Positions 11,355 through 47,061 of a stretch of 64,000 nucleotides of DNA are shown in pieces. Each line of letters begins with the position of its first letter. Position 1 is the first letter of the stretch. The position numbers and the translations under genes were made by a program. Origin of the DNA: Clostridium thermosuccinogenes. GTDB taxonomy: Bacteria; Bacillota; Clostridia; Acetivibrionales; DSM-5807. The notes beneath the pieces were generated by a model that was given only the letters and a program-made list of their open reading frames with translations, was not told the DNA's origin and ran no database searches. The stretch lies in assembly GCF_002896855.1 (NCBI RefSeq), contig NZ_CP021850.1, positions 3,311,665 through 3,375,664 on the forward strand, read 5' to 3'.

Positions 11355-11513
11355 TATGATTCAGAAAGTGAACGTCATTTATGCTGCAGTAGGTAGCCGT
11401 ACAACTAAATAAGCTGACAATACCTGCCGACCTTCCGCTGTCACATCCACCTGAATTCAATAACCGAACTTTCTGTACGGATCAGCCACGCATAAAAGCA
11501 TTAACCAGTCTCA

Positions 11514-11580
11514 CTCATAGTCAAACAATTTACGGTTGTTTGGTAGAAACTCTCGGACCGTATTTCCGAAATTATATGAG
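11514..11580 (-). promoter_or_regulatory. Purine riboswitch aptamer, guanine/hypoxanthine class
   Basis: Classic 67-nt aptamer. P1 is CTCATA with TATGAG; the conserved J1/2 TATAAT, J2/3 GTTTCTACC and the complementary loops with AAATA and CCGTAAA are all present. The ligand-pairing position is C (GACTATG rather than GATTATG), so it should bind guanine or hypoxanthine, not adenine. It is upstream of pbuG, with an unusually long spacer of about 160 nt to the terminator hairpin. Confidence 0.95.
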
Positions 11581-11604
11581 GTTTCGCAATATTTAGTTTA
11601 CGAA

Positions 11605-25727: not shown

Positions 25728-25736
25728 CGACATCTA
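25728..25736. repeat. Target-site duplication, left copy
   Basis: CGACATCTA, repeated in direct orientation at 27520-27528 on the other side of the element. Nine bases fits the ISLre2 family. Confidence 0.9.
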
Positions 25737-25859
25737 GCTCGAGTAAAATTACTGTAGGGAATCAATTGGAATAAATATCCAAAAAATTGAAAAGAAGATG
25801 ACATCCTGTTAAGATATAAGTCGCCAAATCAAAATACTCAACGAAAGGATGCATCTTCT

Positions 25860-27290
25860 ATGTACAATAGTATACAACATTTTATTGGTTTTGGTGTAAA
25901 AAAGATTGAAGAAAAGGTAAAAAAATTTGTTGAAAAGCCTACGGACCTAGCTGACCTTGTTTTGGGATTGCATGAAGAACTTCTTGAATTAGGTAGAAAC
26001 ATTGTTACAGAAGTTCTTGAAGATATGGATGATTATCTGCGGGAATCGGCTTCTCGCAAGCAGAACTGGGAAATTGTAAGAAAGGATAGAACAGGACTTT
26101 TAACAAGCTTTGGACCCATCAGTTATGAACGAACATATTTTAAGCCTAAGAAAGGCGGAAAAAGGCAATATCTTGTGGATAGAATAGTTGGTATCAATCC
26201 TCATGACCGAGTAAGTGCTGATGTTGTCATAAATGCTGTGGAAGAGGCTGCGGAGAGCAGTTATAGAAAAGGTGGAGAAAAAGCTGCATACATGGATGAG
26301 GTAAGCAAACAGGCTGTAATGAATAAAGTACATGAACTTGAAGTTGTTCAGCCATCGGTGGAAAAGAGAAAGGATGAGACACCAAAGATTCTGTATATTG
26401 AGGCTGATGAAGACCATGTAGCGCAGCAAGGGAAAAAGAGACATAAGACAGAAGATGAATGGGGAGCAAGTAGCACACTAATGCCTAAGCTTGTATACGT
26501 TCATGAGGGAATTGACCATGAAAAAAGCACGAAGAAGAGAAAAGTATTGAAGAATCCCCGTTATTTTGGAGGAATCAGAGATAGTGAAGAACTGTGGCTA
26601 GAGGTTTCCCAATACATAGATGATACTTATGATGTGGATAAGATTGAAACTGTATATATATCTGGAGATGGAGCAGCTTGGATAAAACAGGGATTAAACT
26701 GGATTGGTAAAAGCAAGTTTGTATTGGATAAGTATCATTTGAGCAAATACGTAAAAGTAGCAACGGCACACTTGGAAGACGAAGATATCGAACAGGAATT
26801 AGATGATGCCTTGAAAGAAGCTGATAAGGCGGGGCTTAAGAAGGCATTTGCTAAAATTCTTGAAAAGACAGAATCGGAGACAAAGAGGAAAGCGGTTAAC
26901 GATGCAAAAAGATATATATTGAATAACTGGGCAGGAATAGAGATAAAGGTAGATAACTATGAAATTGTAGGATGCAGTGCTGAAGGGCATGTAAGCCATA
27001 TTCTATCCGATAGGTTAAGCAGCAGGCCAATGGGTTGGTCAAAAAATGGTGCGGACAAGATGGCCCAACTCAGAATTTTCAAGAAAAACGGAGGAAAAGT
27101 ATACGACTTGGTAATGGCTCAAAAGAAGAAAGAACAACGGGAGCAGGCACAGCAGCTACAAGATGAATTAATTCGTGAATTGAGAACAAATAGGAATAGA
27201 TATGATGGTGTTTGGGACAGTAATCTAACAATAATCAGTAAAGGCCATAAAACACTGCTTTATAGAGCGCTAAGAGCCTTTGTAGGGTAA
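25860..27290 (+). CDS. ISLre2 family (UPF0236) transposase
   Basis: 476 residues, intact. Family features: charged N-terminal helices, FGPISYERTYFK, the acidic segment ILYIEADEDHVA, VYISGDGAAWIKQGLNW, KFVLDKYHLSKYV, and the C-terminal GCSAEGHVSHILSDRLSSRPMGW. These acidic motifs (EADEDH, SGDGA, LDKYH) are candidates for the catalytic acids, but I have not verified which. A GGATG site lies before the ATG. Codon use is more AT-rich than in neighbours, as expected for a mobile gene. Confidence 0.95.
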   Translation: MYNSIQHFIGFGVKKIEEKVKKFVEKPTDLADLVLGLHEELLELGRNIVTEVLEDMDDYLRESASRKQNWEIVRKDRTGLLTSFGPISYERTYFKPKKGGKRQYLVDRIVGINPHDRVSADVVINAVEEAAESSYRKGGEKAAYMDEVSKQAVMNKVHELEVVQPSVEKRKDETPKILYIEADEDHVAQQGKKRHKTEDEWGASSTLMPKLVYVHEGIDHEKSTKKRKVLKNPRYFGGIRDSEELWLEVSQYIDDTYDVDKIETVYISGDGAAWIKQGLNWIGKSKFVLDKYHLSKYVKVATAHLEDEDIEQELDDALKEADKAGLKKAFAKILEKTESETKRKAVNDAKRYILNNWAGIEIKVDNYEIVGCSAEGHVSHILSDRLSSRPMGWSKNGADKMAQLRIFKKNGGKVYDLVMAQKKKEQREQAQQLQDELIRELRTNRNRYDGVWDSNLTIISKGHKTLLYRALRAFVG

Positions 27291-27337
27291 CAATGAACGA
27301 AGGGAACGGCGAAGCGAACCCTTTACAATAAGAGGGA

Positions 27338-27431
27338 CCCATATGGTATAATGGGCTAAAGTGGCAGCCAAAAGCTCCAGAGACATTCCCCTGTTACAAG
27401 GGGTGCCGCCCTGGCTGACAAACCATATGGG
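27338..27431 (+). ncRNA. Structured 3' region of the ISLre2 element
   Basis: Between the transposase stop and the right end, CCCATATGGT (27338-27347) pairs exactly with ACCATATGGG (27422-27431). Inside, CAGCCA (27365-27370) pairs with TGGCTG (27412-27417), and CCCCT (27388-27392) with AGGGG (27399-27403). This nested, multi-helix fold has no T-run and is not a simple terminator. It could be a functional RNA or a DNA recognition structure; role unknown. Confidence 0.6.
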
Positions 27432-27519
27432 AGATGCTTGTTGTCAAGGGCGTGACCGGAGTGGACTTATTTTAGGAAGTCGTCTTATCTTCAATTCCCT
27501 ACAGTAAATTGACTCAATC

Positions 27520-27528
27520 CGACATCTA
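27520..27528. repeat. Target-site duplication, right copy
   Basis: CGACATCTA, identical to 25728-25736, marking the right junction of the ISLre2 insertion. Confidence 0.9.
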
Positions 27529-27536
27529 AGCGGCAA

Positions 27537-27565
27537 TTGACTAAATTCAATATCTATAGTATAAT
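27537..27565 (+). promoter_or_regulatory. Promoter of the leader ORF and CNNM gene
   Basis: TTGACT (27537-27542), 17 bases, TATAAT (27560-27565). It starts only nine bases after the right target duplication, so the insertion just missed it. The start site should be near 27572, giving a leader of about 22 nt before the small ORF. Confidence 0.85.
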
Positions 27566-27593
27566 TCTCATAAAATTATTGGGAGTTTTTACA

Positions 27594-27662
27594 ATGGATG
27601 ATTCACCTTTACCTGAGCGATATGTATTAATGTTGGTAATAAATATGGTAATATTGCTATAG
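27594..27662 (+). CDS. 22-residue leader peptide, acidic/proline N-terminus
   Basis: ATG with GGGAG eight bases upstream; the peptide begins MDDSPLPERY and ends in a hydrophobic run (LVINMVILL). The last base of the TAG stop is the first base of a terminator hairpin. Promoter, ribosome site, ORF and terminator together look like a transcription attenuator. The N-terminal acidic/Pro pattern recalls enterobacterial MgtL, whose acid-Pro residues destabilise ribosomes when Mg2+ is low. The next gene encodes a CNNM/CorC family protein linked to Mg2+ export. The coding call rests on the signals; the mechanism is inferred. Confidence 0.6.
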   Translation: MDDSPLPERYVLMLVINMVILL

Positions 27663-27711
27663 CACGGGGCAAAATAGATATTAATATCTATTCTGTTTTC
27701 GTGCATTTTTT
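27662..27711 (+). terminator. Terminator/attenuator before the CNNM gene
   Basis: AATAGATATT pairs with AATATCTATT, extended by CA/TG, several G-T pairs and GCACG/CGTGC, then ATTTTTT. The stem starts on the stop codon of the leader ORF, so a ribosome finishing that ORF would cover its 5' arm. Confidence 0.8.
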
Positions 27712-27787
27712 ATTGGTAATGCAATATCCATAAGAACTGACATTTATCCATTATCGTTCAAATATGTGCATTTGGGAGGTTATATTG

Positions 27788-29131
27788 TTGTCCGAAGGAG
27801 ACTCTATATTTTGGCAGCTGGTTTTGCAGCTTATTCTGATTCTTATCAATGCAATATTTGCCTGTGCTGAAATCGCAGTCATTTCAATGAATGACACCAA
27901 ACTTTCAAAGCTTGCTTCAAAAGGCAATAAACGTGCTAAAAGGCTTGTAAAGTTAACCGAACAGCCATCCCGGTTTCTTGCCACAATACAAGTAGGTATA
28001 ACTTTTGCCGGCTTTCTCGGCAGCGCTTTCGCCGCAGATAATTTTTCAGACAAGTTGGTAAATTGGTTGGTCGGCATGGGCGTTGAAGTTTCTGTGAAAA
28101 CCCTCGATACAATCTCGGTTATTGTTATAACCCTGATTCTTTCATATTTCACTCTTGTATTGGGAGAACTAGTACCTAAGCGGATTGCCATGAAAAAGGC
28201 TGATGAGCTTGCCCTTGCCATTTCTGGCCTGGTATATTTCATCTCAAAAATATTTGCTCCTCTGGTATCGCTTCTGACTGCATCTACCAATGGCATATTG
28301 AAGCTTTTAGGCATCGATCCGAATGCCGAAGATGACAGGGTTACTGAGGAAGAAATCCGTATGATGGTACAGGCAGGCAGCGAAAAAGGAACCATTGATC
28401 AGGATGAAAAGGAAATGATACAAAACGTTTTTGAGTTTGACGACAAAACTGCCGGAGATATAATGACTCATAGGACTGAGGTTTCTCTCCTCTGGCTTGA
28501 AGAAAGCGATGAGCAGTGGGAAAAAACCATAACCGAAAGCCGACATACCATGTATCCTGTTTGTGATGGAAGCACAGATAATATCATAGGTGTTTTAAAC
28601 ACAAAGGATTATTTCAGGATTAAGGAAAAAAACCGGGATATTATCTTAAAAAAAGCTGTAAAGCCCGCATACTTCGTTCCGGATACAGTACGTACCGATG
28701 TATTGTTCCGCAATATGAAGAAAAGCCGCCATCGTTTTGCCATAGTGTTGGATGAATACGGAGGGATGGACGGTATAGTTACAATGAGCGATATTCTGGA
28801 ACAACTGGTGGGAGATCTGGAATATGATGATTCTGTGCCAGAAAAGCGACCCACGATTGAACGGGTTGATTCCCATACATGGAAAGTATTAGGTTCACCT
28901 CCTCTGGAAACGGTGTCAGAATGTCTTGGCATAGCGCTTCCGCTGGATGACTATGATACCTTTGGAGGGCTGGTCTTCGGCCTGCTAGGATATATCCCTG
29001 AAGACGGAAGTACTCCTGAGATTGAGGAATATGGACTTTTGATCAAAGTTTTGGAAATAAAAGAACATCAACTGGAAAAAGCCATAATCTATCTGCAGCA
29101 AAAACCTGAAGACGACGACACGAAAGAATAG
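27788..29131 (+). CDS. CNNM/CorC (HlyC) family transporter, probable Mg2+ exporter
   Basis: About 447 residues. N-terminal CNNM transmembrane domain (about 1-190) with FACAEIAVISMN, QVGITFAGFLGSAFA and LVLGELVPKRIAM; a CBS pair (about 205-335) with DIMTHRTEV and RFAIVLDEYGGMDGIVTMSDILEQLVGDL; and a C-terminal CorC/HlyC domain. Relatives such as Staphylococcus MpfA and Bacillus YhdP export Mg2+. I start at the TTG at 27788, eight bases from GGGAGG, not at the upstream ATG at 27764. It is preceded by the leader ORF and attenuator, and followed by its own terminator. Confidence 0.9.
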   Translation: MSEGDSIFWQLVLQLILILINAIFACAEIAVISMNDTKLSKLASKGNKRAKRLVKLTEQPSRFLATIQVGITFAGFLGSAFAADNFSDKLVNWLVGMGVEVSVKTLDTISVIVITLILSYFTLVLGELVPKRIAMKKADELALAISGLVYFISKIFAPLVSLLTASTNGILKLLGIDPNAEDDRVTEEEIRMMVQAGSEKGTIDQDEKEMIQNVFEFDDKTAGDIMTHRTEVSLLWLEESDEQWEKTITESRHTMYPVCDGSTDNIIGVLNTKDYFRIKEKNRDIILKKAVKPAYFVPDTVRTDVLFRNMKKSRHRFAIVLDEYGGMDGIVTMSDILEQLVGDLEYDDSVPEKRPTIERVDSHTWKVLGSPPLETVSECLGIALPLDDYDTFGGLVFGLLGYIPEDGSTPEIEEYGLLIKVLEIKEHQLEKAIIYLQQKPEDDDTKE

Positions 29132-35219: not shown

Positions 35220-35510
35220 AACTCCTTCATCCAAAAGGGACGAAAGAGCTATTCGCGGTACCACCCTAATTAACATCTTCACGATGTTCTCTCTACCAGT
35301 ACTTGGCCTAAGCCTTCATACTGTGCCTCTATAACGCGAGGTAACGTCTTCTTCTACATTAAAGCCTTGCCCGCATATTTCATATGTAAGCATGGGCTTT
35401 ATTTCTCAAAGAGAAACTCAAGAGCTGCTTTCTATATAATCCTTTTCCGGACTTTCACCATTCCTCCGGCTCGCTGTGAAATTCATATATATACTCTTCT
35501 CTGTCATCGC
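35220..35510 (-). promoter_or_regulatory. T-box riboswitch, probably alanine-specific (GCA)
   Basis: Minus strand: stem I begins GCGATGACAGAGAAGAGTA, has the AGCGAGCCGG/GTGAAAGTCCGG apical pair, and the specifier region GAAAGCAGCTCTTGAG; counting back from CTCTTGAG gives codon GCA at 35426-35428. The T-box AATTAGGGTGGTACCGCG is at 35254-35271, with TGGT pairing to a tRNA ending ACCA (A73), as tRNA-Ala has. The terminator CTCTTTCGTCC/GGATGAAGGAG plus TTTTT is at 35220-35250. Uncharged tRNA-Ala should switch on lrp, the aminotransferase and the phosphatase. AGC (Ser) is the alternative reading but does not fit the U in TGGU. Confidence 0.88.
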
Positions 35511-35573
35511 TTTTAATAATATTTTGTTATTATTTCTATTATATAAGAAAATCTCTTTTATATCAATACAGAC

Positions 35574-36261: not shown

Positions 36262-36274
36262 ATTAATGTACAAA

Positions 36275-36433
36275 ATCCGGTAGGCAAGGCTACCACAGGG
36301 ATACGGACTGCTGCCGCGAAGTAGTGGAGACACGACGAGATGGTAAGCAGGTTATGTCGAAGCACAAGGCATAGCCTAATGCAGTTTCATCGCCCTGTGA
36401 TGCTAAAGCTCAAACGGTGCTGCATGATATAAT
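36275..36433 (+). promoter_or_regulatory. M-box (ykoK) Mg2+ riboswitch
   Basis: The conserved M-box pieces occur in order: GGTAGGCAAGGCTACC hairpin, GGATACGGACTGCTGCC, the GTCGAAGCACAAGGCAT segment, CCTAATGCAGTTTCATCG and GTGATGCTAAAGCTC. It closes back on its 5' end. Mg2+ binding should favour the terminator that follows and shut off mgtE. Confidence 0.93.
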
Positions 36434-36502: not shown

Positions 36503-36604
36503 ATGGACGCTGGCAGTAGTAACGGCACAAACCCAGGTCGGAGTATAATTGAAAAGTTAAATGACATGGTACCGCTATATACAAAAGCGTCCATTGTTAT
36601 CTGA
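36503..36604 (+). CDS. 33-residue ORF between the M-box and mgtE
   Basis: ATG with AGAGGTG about eight bases upstream; the peptide begins MDAGSSNGTNPGRS and ends DMVPLYTKASIVI. It lies after the M-box terminator and 87 bases before mgtE, so it is made only when the riboswitch lets transcription through. The first codons (ATGGACGC) and last codons (GCGTCCAT) are complementary, so the ORF could close into a large stem. It may be a leader peptide or just a translated spacer. I do not recognise it. Confidence 0.5.
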   Translation: MDAGSSNGTNPGRSIIEKLNDMVPLYTKASIVI

Positions 36605-36691: not shown

Positions 36692-38047
36692 ATGGCAGAA
36701 ATCACCGCAACCTTTGAAGCAACCATAGAAATGCTTCTGGAACAAAAGAAATTCAACAGCCTGAAAGATATTCTTACCACTATGTATCCTGCCGATATCG
36801 CAATACTTTTTGAGGGTCTTCCAAAGCAAAAGCTCACGCTGCTGTTCAGGCTTTTGCCCAAAGAGCTCGCAGCGGAGGTGTTTGTTGAGATGGAAAGCCA
36901 TCTGCAACAGCTTCTCATCACCGGTTTTTCCGACAAGGAACTAAAGGAGATTATAGATGAGCTGTATATGGATGACGCAGTTGACCTTATTGAGGAGATG
37001 CCGGCAAATGTGGTAAAACGTATACTTTCCCAGGCTGATCCCGAAACCCGGCGGCTCATCAACGAAATGCTCATGTATCCGGAAGACAGCGCCGGAAGCA
37101 TAATGACCACTGAGTTTGTTGATTTGCGTCCGGAGATGACCGCGAGCGATGCTGTCGATCATATTCGCGCTACCGGCATAGACAAGGAGACTATAGACGT
37201 CTGCTATGTTACCGACACAAAGCGCAAACTGGTGGGTGCCATATCGATACGCACGATAATTCTGGCGGCAAAAGATACAAAAATCAGTGAAATAATGGAT
37301 CCACACGTGATCTCAGTAAACACACATGAAGATCAGGAAGCTGTTGCACAGATTTTTGCAAAGTACGGATTCACGGCCATCCCTGTTGTAGACACAGAAA
37401 ACAGACTTGTTGGAATAGTAACCGTGGATGATGCTATCGACGTAATGCAGGAAGAAACTACGGAGGATATATCCAAAATGGCGGCCATAACCCCGCCGGA
37501 TAAGCCTTATTTCCAGCTGTCTGTATTTGAGATCTGGAAAAGCCGTATTCCCTGGCTGCTGCTTCTTATGATTTCCGCAACCTTTACCGGTATGATTATA
37601 TCCAGCTTTGAAAAGGCCCTTGCGACATATATCGTCCTTACGGCATTTATACCTATGCTTATGGATACCGGGGGCAATTCCGGAAGTCAGGCTTCAGTCA
37701 CCATCATCCGCGGATTGTCGCTGCAGCAGATACAATTCTCCGACATCCTGCGAGTGGTGTGGAAAGAGGCGCGGGTGGCTGTAATGTGCGCTATTACCCT
37801 ATCCGTATTCAACTTTGCAAAGCTCATGCTCTTTGACAGGGTGGGATTATATGTGGCTCTGGTTATCTGCATTACATTATCGGCAACCGTTTTCGTCGCG
37901 AAAATTGTAGGCTGCATATTGCCCATGCTTGCCAAAAAAATAGGATTTGATCCGGCAGTTATGGCAAGCCCGTTCATAACAACCATAGTAGATGCTTTGT
38001 CCCTCATTATATATTTCAGTACAGCATCGGTAATCCTGGGCATTTAG
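36692..38047 (+). CDS. mgtE: Magnesium transporter MgtE
   Basis: MgtE is a homodimeric Mg2+ channel gated by cytosolic Mg2+. 451 residues: N domain (about 1-130) with DIAILFEGLPKQKLTLLFRLLP, a CBS pair (about 135-255) with YPEDSAGSIMTTEFV and FTAIPVVDTENRLVGIVTVDDAIDV, and five membrane helices with PWLLLLMISATFTGMI, FIPMLMDTGGNSGSQASV (the pore signature) and DPAVMASPFITTIVDALSLIIYF. GGAGG lies seven bases before the start. M-box control fits the function. Confidence 0.96.
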   Translation: MAEITATFEATIEMLLEQKKFNSLKDILTTMYPADIAILFEGLPKQKLTLLFRLLPKELAAEVFVEMESHLQQLLITGFSDKELKEIIDELYMDDAVDLIEEMPANVVKRILSQADPETRRLINEMLMYPEDSAGSIMTTEFVDLRPEMTASDAVDHIRATGIDKETIDVCYVTDTKRKLVGAISIRTIILAAKDTKISEIMDPHVISVNTHEDQEAVAQIFAKYGFTAIPVVDTENRLVGIVTVDDAIDVMQEETTEDISKMAAITPPDKPYFQLSVFEIWKSRIPWLLLLMISATFTGMIISSFEKALATYIVLTAFIPMLMDTGGNSGSQASVTIIRGLSLQQIQFSDILRVVWKEARVAVMCAITLSVFNFAKLMLFDRVGLYVALVICITLSATVFVAKIVGCILPMLAKKIGFDPAVMASPFITTIVDALSLIIYFSTASVILGI

Positions 38048-46690: not shown

Positions 46691-46727
46691 ATTCTAAAAA
46701 GGCAAGAATAAACAATACATAAACCAC

Positions 46728-46925
46728 CCTCTCTTTCAACGCTTACGAGGTTAGCTGCCGGATTCGGATCGAAAGAGTTGACCCTACCATATTAGAAATG
46801 TGATGCCCACGTATGCCATTCAAGCAACGTCCGATTCACTGCCTGAATTCATCGCCGGATTGTCGGCATCCATTTGCTAATAAGGATTCACCCCAGAAAT
46901 TGGTTCCCCCGTTCTGTTCGATTAA
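46728..46925 (-). promoter_or_regulatory. Cyclic-di-AMP riboswitch (ydaO-yuaA)
   Basis: Minus strand core elements in order: GAACGGGGGAACCAAT, GGGGTGAATCC, GCCGACAATCCGGCGATGAATTC, CGATCCGAATCCGG, and the strongly conserved CAGCTAACCTCGTAAGCGTTGAAAGAGAG. This is the ydaO class, which binds c-di-AMP and normally turns genes off. The next gene on this strand is dapB, about 570 bases away. Confidence 0.93.
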
Positions 46926-47061
46926 GCGCAATATATTAAATTGTTTTATCGCGAGCGGAAAGCCGCTCAGGACAAATTAGCTGCTCGTGCGGGTATGCAA
47001 TGCAAGAACCACACTGAGCAAATACATACAATAAATGTATTTATATTTAGTAACTGTTATT

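Follow-up and report, generated by a model that had tools for sequence, protein, structure and literature searches.

Several described systems link the translation of short acidic and proline-containing peptides to Mg2+. The closest is MgtL, the leader ORF of the importer gene mgtA in Enterobacteria, on whose EPDP stretch ribosomes drop off at low Mg2+ (PMC11282234). A second one is formed by E. coli CorC (YbeX), whose acidic/IRD N-terminus is a destabilising start, and by YoaL, the leader of mgpA (yoaE). These are cation-tolerance genes; in Salmonella, high Mg2+ raises the expression of corC and mgpA, and the acidic start or leader has been proposed as the gate (PMC12421838, citing Chadani 2017 and 2021). 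The rules of ribosome destabilisation were derived in E. coli and are taken here from citing papers. Further systems for comparison are the tnaC/trp-type attenuators and the M-box (ykoK) riboswitch, which controls Mg2+ transport genes in Firmicutes. For the CNNM/MpfA Mg2+ exporters of Firmicutes, no regulation was described in the open-access literature that we found.

The locus compared here with these systems lies in Clostridium thermosuccinogenes, contig NZ_CP021850.1 (GCF_002896855.1). The window, meaning the whole stretch of DNA that was analysed, is 64,000 nt long and spans 3,311,665–3,375,664 of the forward strand. Coordinates below are window positions. The following features were recognized at the locus:

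25737–27519, + strand: ISLre2-type insertion sequence, with its transposase at 25860–27290 (Pfam UPF0236, Mutator-type); six other copies share the right end to 27519
27537–27565, + strand: sigma-A promoter of the leader/CNNM transcript (TTGACT 27537–27542, 17 nt, TATAAT 27560–27565; 11/12 match)
27581–27585, + strand: Shine-Dalgarno sequence GGGAG of the leader ORF, 8 nt 5' of the ATG (read from the sequence)
27594–27662, + strand: leader ORF of 22 codons, MDDSPLPERYVLMLVINMVILL and stop (starts MDDSPLPERY), with homologues in front of CNNM genes
27597–27620, + strand: conserved acidic/proline leader start, codons 2–9 (DDSPLPER), a proposed ribosome-destabilising stretch (codon-position differences, D/E content)
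27662–27711, + strand: intrinsic terminator, stem 27662–27671 plus 27673–27680 pairing with 27685–27704, then T6 at 27706–27711
27774–27779, + strand: Shine-Dalgarno sequence GGGAGG of the CNNM gene (read from the sequence)
27788–29131, + strand: CNNM/CorC family putative exporter gene, MSEGDSIFWQ..., start TTG 27785 or 27788 (Pfam, PDB relatives, NCBIfam)

Sequence reading, folding and conservation agreed that all elements of the unit described in an earlier note are present: promoter, Shine-Dalgarno sequence, leader ORF, terminator on the stop codon, and CNNM gene downstream. Only the start of the CNNM gene had to be corrected, because the ATG at 27764 sits 5' of the GGGAGG, and one of the two TTG codons is the start. 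The 5' arm of the terminator begins on the leader stop codon, with the G of TAG (27662) in the first pair. By folding, the hairpin (27662–27704) reached −17.7 kcal/mol with a z-score of −4.4, and none of 200 shuffles was equally stable. Masking by a ribosome at the leader stop left it at −4.9. A simple terminator scan had overlooked this hairpin because of its bulge; such scans missed bulged hairpins, and folding was used in their place. Between the terminator and the CNNM gene, the only promoter-like match was TTCAAA-18-TATATT (9/12), overlapping the CNNM Shine-Dalgarno sequence and start. Over the whole region such matches were at chance level (7 found vs 7.8 expected). The pattern GGAGN{4,12}RTGGAYGAYNNNCC, a Shine-Dalgarno sequence plus MDDxP, occurred once in the whole 4.7-Mb genome, at the CNNM leader, and the control gave 0.

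The insertion sequence next to the locus also bears on the promoter. ISLre2 elements insert 15–17 bases upstream of the −35 box of sigma-A promoters (PMC3942029). Besides its Mutator-type transposase, the element here is flanked by 9-bp direct repeats (CGACATCTA, at 25728–25736 and 27520–27528), and it ends 17 nt before the leader −35, leaving the promoter intact. Five of the seven ISLre2-type copies in the genome (L002–L007 being the other six) have TTGACA/T 17–18 nt beyond their right end, and four of those five also have a good −10. Given this promoter targeting, the transposon independently marks the leader promoter as real. An origin of the promoter from the insertion sequence was rejected, as it lies outside both the element and the target site duplication.

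To follow the leader in relatives, CNNM genes were sampled within the order, the class and the phylum of this bacterium, and named MAGs were added, giving 134 non-identical upstream regions. By a strict rule, a short ORF preceded by a Shine-Dalgarno sequence and with an acidic/proline N-terminus was found in 68 of them, whereas shuffles gave 2.7 and the opposite strand none; the 68 are a lower bound, since the motif is visible by eye in rule-negative loci (e.g., L011, L039, L045, L067). The search that the earlier note had proposed, for short ORFs with early Asp, Glu or Pro upstream of CNNM genes in Clostridia, found a conserved leader. Its starts were MDDSPLPER, MDDIPEDIR, MDDGDSN, MDAGDSSPD, MSDEESD, MSDSSDSDSEPP or similar. 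With a composition-blind definition, there were 124 Shine-Dalgarno-preceded short ORFs, while the opposite strand had 20 and each shuffle 48. The 124 had a mean of 2.09 D/E in residues 2–10, vs 0.71, with a p of 4e-18 that is only indicative, given the common ancestry of the sequences and possible near-duplicates among the MAGs.

The leader was also present outside the class (L288, L289, L296, L298, L302, L303). In distant CNNM paralogues it was rare, reaching at best 16/80 by a loose rule that includes some false cases. About half of the sampled CNNM genes had no leader by the strict rule, which, together with most of the distant paralogues, indicates that CNNM control can do without it. The leaderless CNNM genes (L147–L226 and others) often had an acidic/proline start of their own, such as MSDDGSIPLQ, MDNPDPGN, VEDGDSI or MEDPLLW.

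The geometry of the unit was shared by the relatives. The 5' end of the hairpin lay between −44 and +8 nt from the leader stop in 53 of the 55 leaders with a detectable hairpin, so that a ribosome arriving at the stop is expected to destroy it. Folding gave the same picture: the hairpins had a median energy of −18.5 kcal/mol, but of only −1.4 kcal/mol with a ribosome at the stop, and with a ribosome at codon 8 the hairpin was free in 98%. In an alternative subclass (L013, L052, L054, L131, L134, L135), the ORF reads through the hairpin and U-tract and ends in GNYMLSFLLCVFLLL. According to these models, full translation of the leader is incompatible with termination in all arrangements seen. 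Compensatory pairs were found at 6/15 in one hairpin group, and their support was weak in another. A strong promoter 5' of the leader was present in 77%, vs 4% of shuffles, and one of comparable quality 3' of the terminator in 0/55 loci. This upholds the earlier observation that there is no clear second promoter, the 9/12 match of C. thermosuccinogenes included. The single promoter before the leader and, by geometry and folding, the incompatibility of a ribosome at the ORF end with the terminator are as expected of a leader-peptide attenuator.

A riboswitch at this site was rejected. The leader part was unstructured (z ~0) in most of 12 loci, vs z-scores of −1.9 to −9.8 for the hairpins, which argues against a riboswitch, and no Rfam family matched 27520–27790 when the whole window was scanned.

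These elements suggest the following mechanism. RNA polymerase would start just past 27565, and a ribosome would initiate on the leader ORF. The first 8–10 residues, rich in Asp/Glu and with Pro, would form a nascent chain that destabilises ribosomes at low Mg2+, as in MgtL and E. coli CorC. If ribosomes abort early, the terminator would form and the exporter would be off. A surviving ribosome at the stop codon would, judging from the conserved geometry, sit on the terminator's 5' arm and keep the hairpin from forming, and the polymerase would enter the exporter gene. The net outcome would be exporter on at high Mg2+ and off at low Mg2+. By analogy, we infer that ribosomes abort on the acidic start, that Mg2+ is the signal and that the response runs in this direction; for Mg2+, the basis is the gene family and the published biology of MgtL and E. 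coli CorC (PMC11282234, PMC12421838). The attenuator logic of the earlier note has gained from conservation, from peptide selection limited to the start, from the overlap of ORF end and terminator and from the single promoter; its overall reading was supported in part. Two of the three outcomes that the note had named as refuting it, a separate promoter and missing conservation of the ORF, were looked for and not seen. A leader-peptide attenuator probably makes the expression of a CNNM-type exporter for Mg2+ (or cations) depend on how stable ribosomes are.

Ribosome release at a stop codon is quick, so its timing relative to the polymerase must fit for the masking to work. The leaders of L016–L028, L288 and L289 end in YRRP, YPRP or YLRP, directly before the stop. 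Here the proline may slow release and prolong the masking of the terminator.

Like MgtL, the locus has a short leader ORF with early acidic residues and proline and, downstream, a putative Mg2+ transporter gene, recognized by its CNNM/CorC domains; for MgtL, and by prediction for the CNNM leader, the outcome hinges on whether the ribosome finishes the leader. MgtL, however, precedes an importer, works with Rho and turns the gene off on finishing, whereas the CNNM leader precedes a putative exporter, carries an intrinsic hairpin and T-run in place of Rho-dependent termination, and is predicted to turn the gene on. No sequence relation between the two is claimed. The CorC/YoaL systems share the acidic start as a proposed gate, but there the destabilising stretch lies in CorC itself or in a leader overlapping the gene, and there is no intrinsic terminator attenuator. 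For CNNM proteins, the destabilising stretch may be located either in the leader or in the N-terminus of the protein itself, cf. E. coli CorC. As in tnaC/trp-type attenuators, the position of the ribosome at the leader end is predicted to decide on the transcription stop, but the CNNM leader has no single-amino-acid codon run, known inducer-binding arrest sequence or detected antiterminator hairpin. In the leader set, no run of codons for a regulated amino acid was found (the starts are mixed D/E/S/P), the later codons were unconserved and the leader part was unstructured. The M-box differs by its metal-binding RNA fold, and none was found at the CNNM leader. The CNNM leader would function like MgtL yet is not a member of that class; we regard it as a probable translation-coupled attenuator that lacks any amino-acid codon run.

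The CNNM gene product had CNNM, CBS and CorC_HlyC domains (Pfam), and its PDB relatives included 7m1u/7m1t and CorC (4hg0). The best NCBIfam model was PaeA, the polyamine export protein. Because PaeA is among the relatives, “ribosome-stabilising cations” describes the signal more cautiously. The same switch could respond to polyamines, or to the sum of ribosome-stabilising cations, with a PaeA-like CNNM protein exporting polyamines or several cations. This would agree with PMC12421838, according to which polyamines replace Mg2+ and are exported by PaeA once Mg2+ returns. The PaeA model scored 253 bits, far under the family cut-off of 500, and the leader class was found once before mgtE, the gene of a Mg2+ importer. 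We consider this alternative unlikely.

The genes behind such leaders bear on a further alternative. In the class genomes (n = 196), 12 short ORFs had a leader-like start and a substantial same-strand gene behind them, 7 standing before CNNM and 1 before MgtE. The same switch might report general translation stress, with pausing on the acidic/proline start governed by EF-P, ABC-F factors or ribosome-targeting drugs and Mg2+ being incidental. EttA acts on acidic starts, MgtL among them (PMC11282234), and the leader geometry would react to anything that halts the ribosome early. The short-ORF pattern, however, stands before Mg2+ transporter genes and not before translation-factor or drug-resistance genes, and translation stress as the signal is about as unlikely as polyamines.

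Selection on the leader peptide was visible in the codon positions. Among 17 leaders from the DDSPLPER group, codon positions 1/2/3 showed 202/222/586 differences in codons 2–9 vs 745/819/816 in codons 10–18. Because leaders entered the group on account of their start, this contrast is partly circular. Third bases were near saturation in codons 2–9, showing that the peptide similarity is not due to recent ancestry. The share of D/E in the leaders was 39% in residues 2–10 and 56% in residues 2–5, and ~5% past residue 10. By these sequence comparisons, peptide-level selection is confined to the acidic/proline start, and the tail is free. The synonymous bias that the earlier note had expected was found as a third-position excess in codons 2–9 only. 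A functional small protein was rejected, as the main group had no codon-position bias past residue 10. The same pattern makes a fixed expression level, i.e., leaky termination coupled to translation without any signal, very improbable: the chemistry of the first 8–10 residues is selected while the remaining peptide drifts, and an acidic start under selection needs a function. A chance ORF beside an unrelated terminator, conceivable because AT-rich leaders commonly hold short ORFs, is refuted by the conservation, the shuffles, the strand control and the genome-wide pattern count, and keeps next to no probability.

A second Mg2+ transporter gene of the window, mgtE (36692–38047), is preceded by two elements:

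36269–36425: M-box riboswitch before mgtE (Rfam)
36503–36604: short ORF MDAGSSNGTNPGRSIIEKLNDMVPLYTKASIVI and stop, beginning MDAGSSNGTNPGRS, between the M-box and mgtE

Related ORFs stood before mgtE in many Clostridia, with starts such as MDAGSSSGTxPDGR, MDAVPGRW and MDNIPGRSS. No Rfam match was found in 12 loci with mgtE leaders. These leaders had an acid at residue 2 in 54%, vs 9% of shuffles, and no acidic cluster; from their folding no single switch model emerged. The “mgtE motif” of the literature comes solely from Thioalkalivibrio. We put forward, as a tentative and rather doubtful idea, that Clostridia and their relatives use nascent-peptide sensors of ribosome stability on both sides of Mg2+ transport, with CNNM leaders turning genes on when finished and the mgtE class (MDAGSS..P.R) acting with the opposite sign, beside the M-box or replacing it. 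Elsewhere in the window, Rfam recognized T-box (35233–35516, −), purine (11498–11599, −) and c-di-AMP (46724–46938, −) riboswitches.

No description of the CNNM leader was found in the open-access full-text literature that was searched, and such leaders were absent from the main text of the RNA-motif papers PMC11109978, PMC8632094 and PMC2965389. The arrangement appears to be undescribed. If the proposed reading is true, the ribosome-based Mg2+ sensing of enterobacterial importers would have been reused in Gram-positives with its sign reversed, to open an exporter. With the CNNM leader, it can be tested directly whether ribosome destabilisation serves as a physiological switch, and a sequence rule for finding others is at hand.
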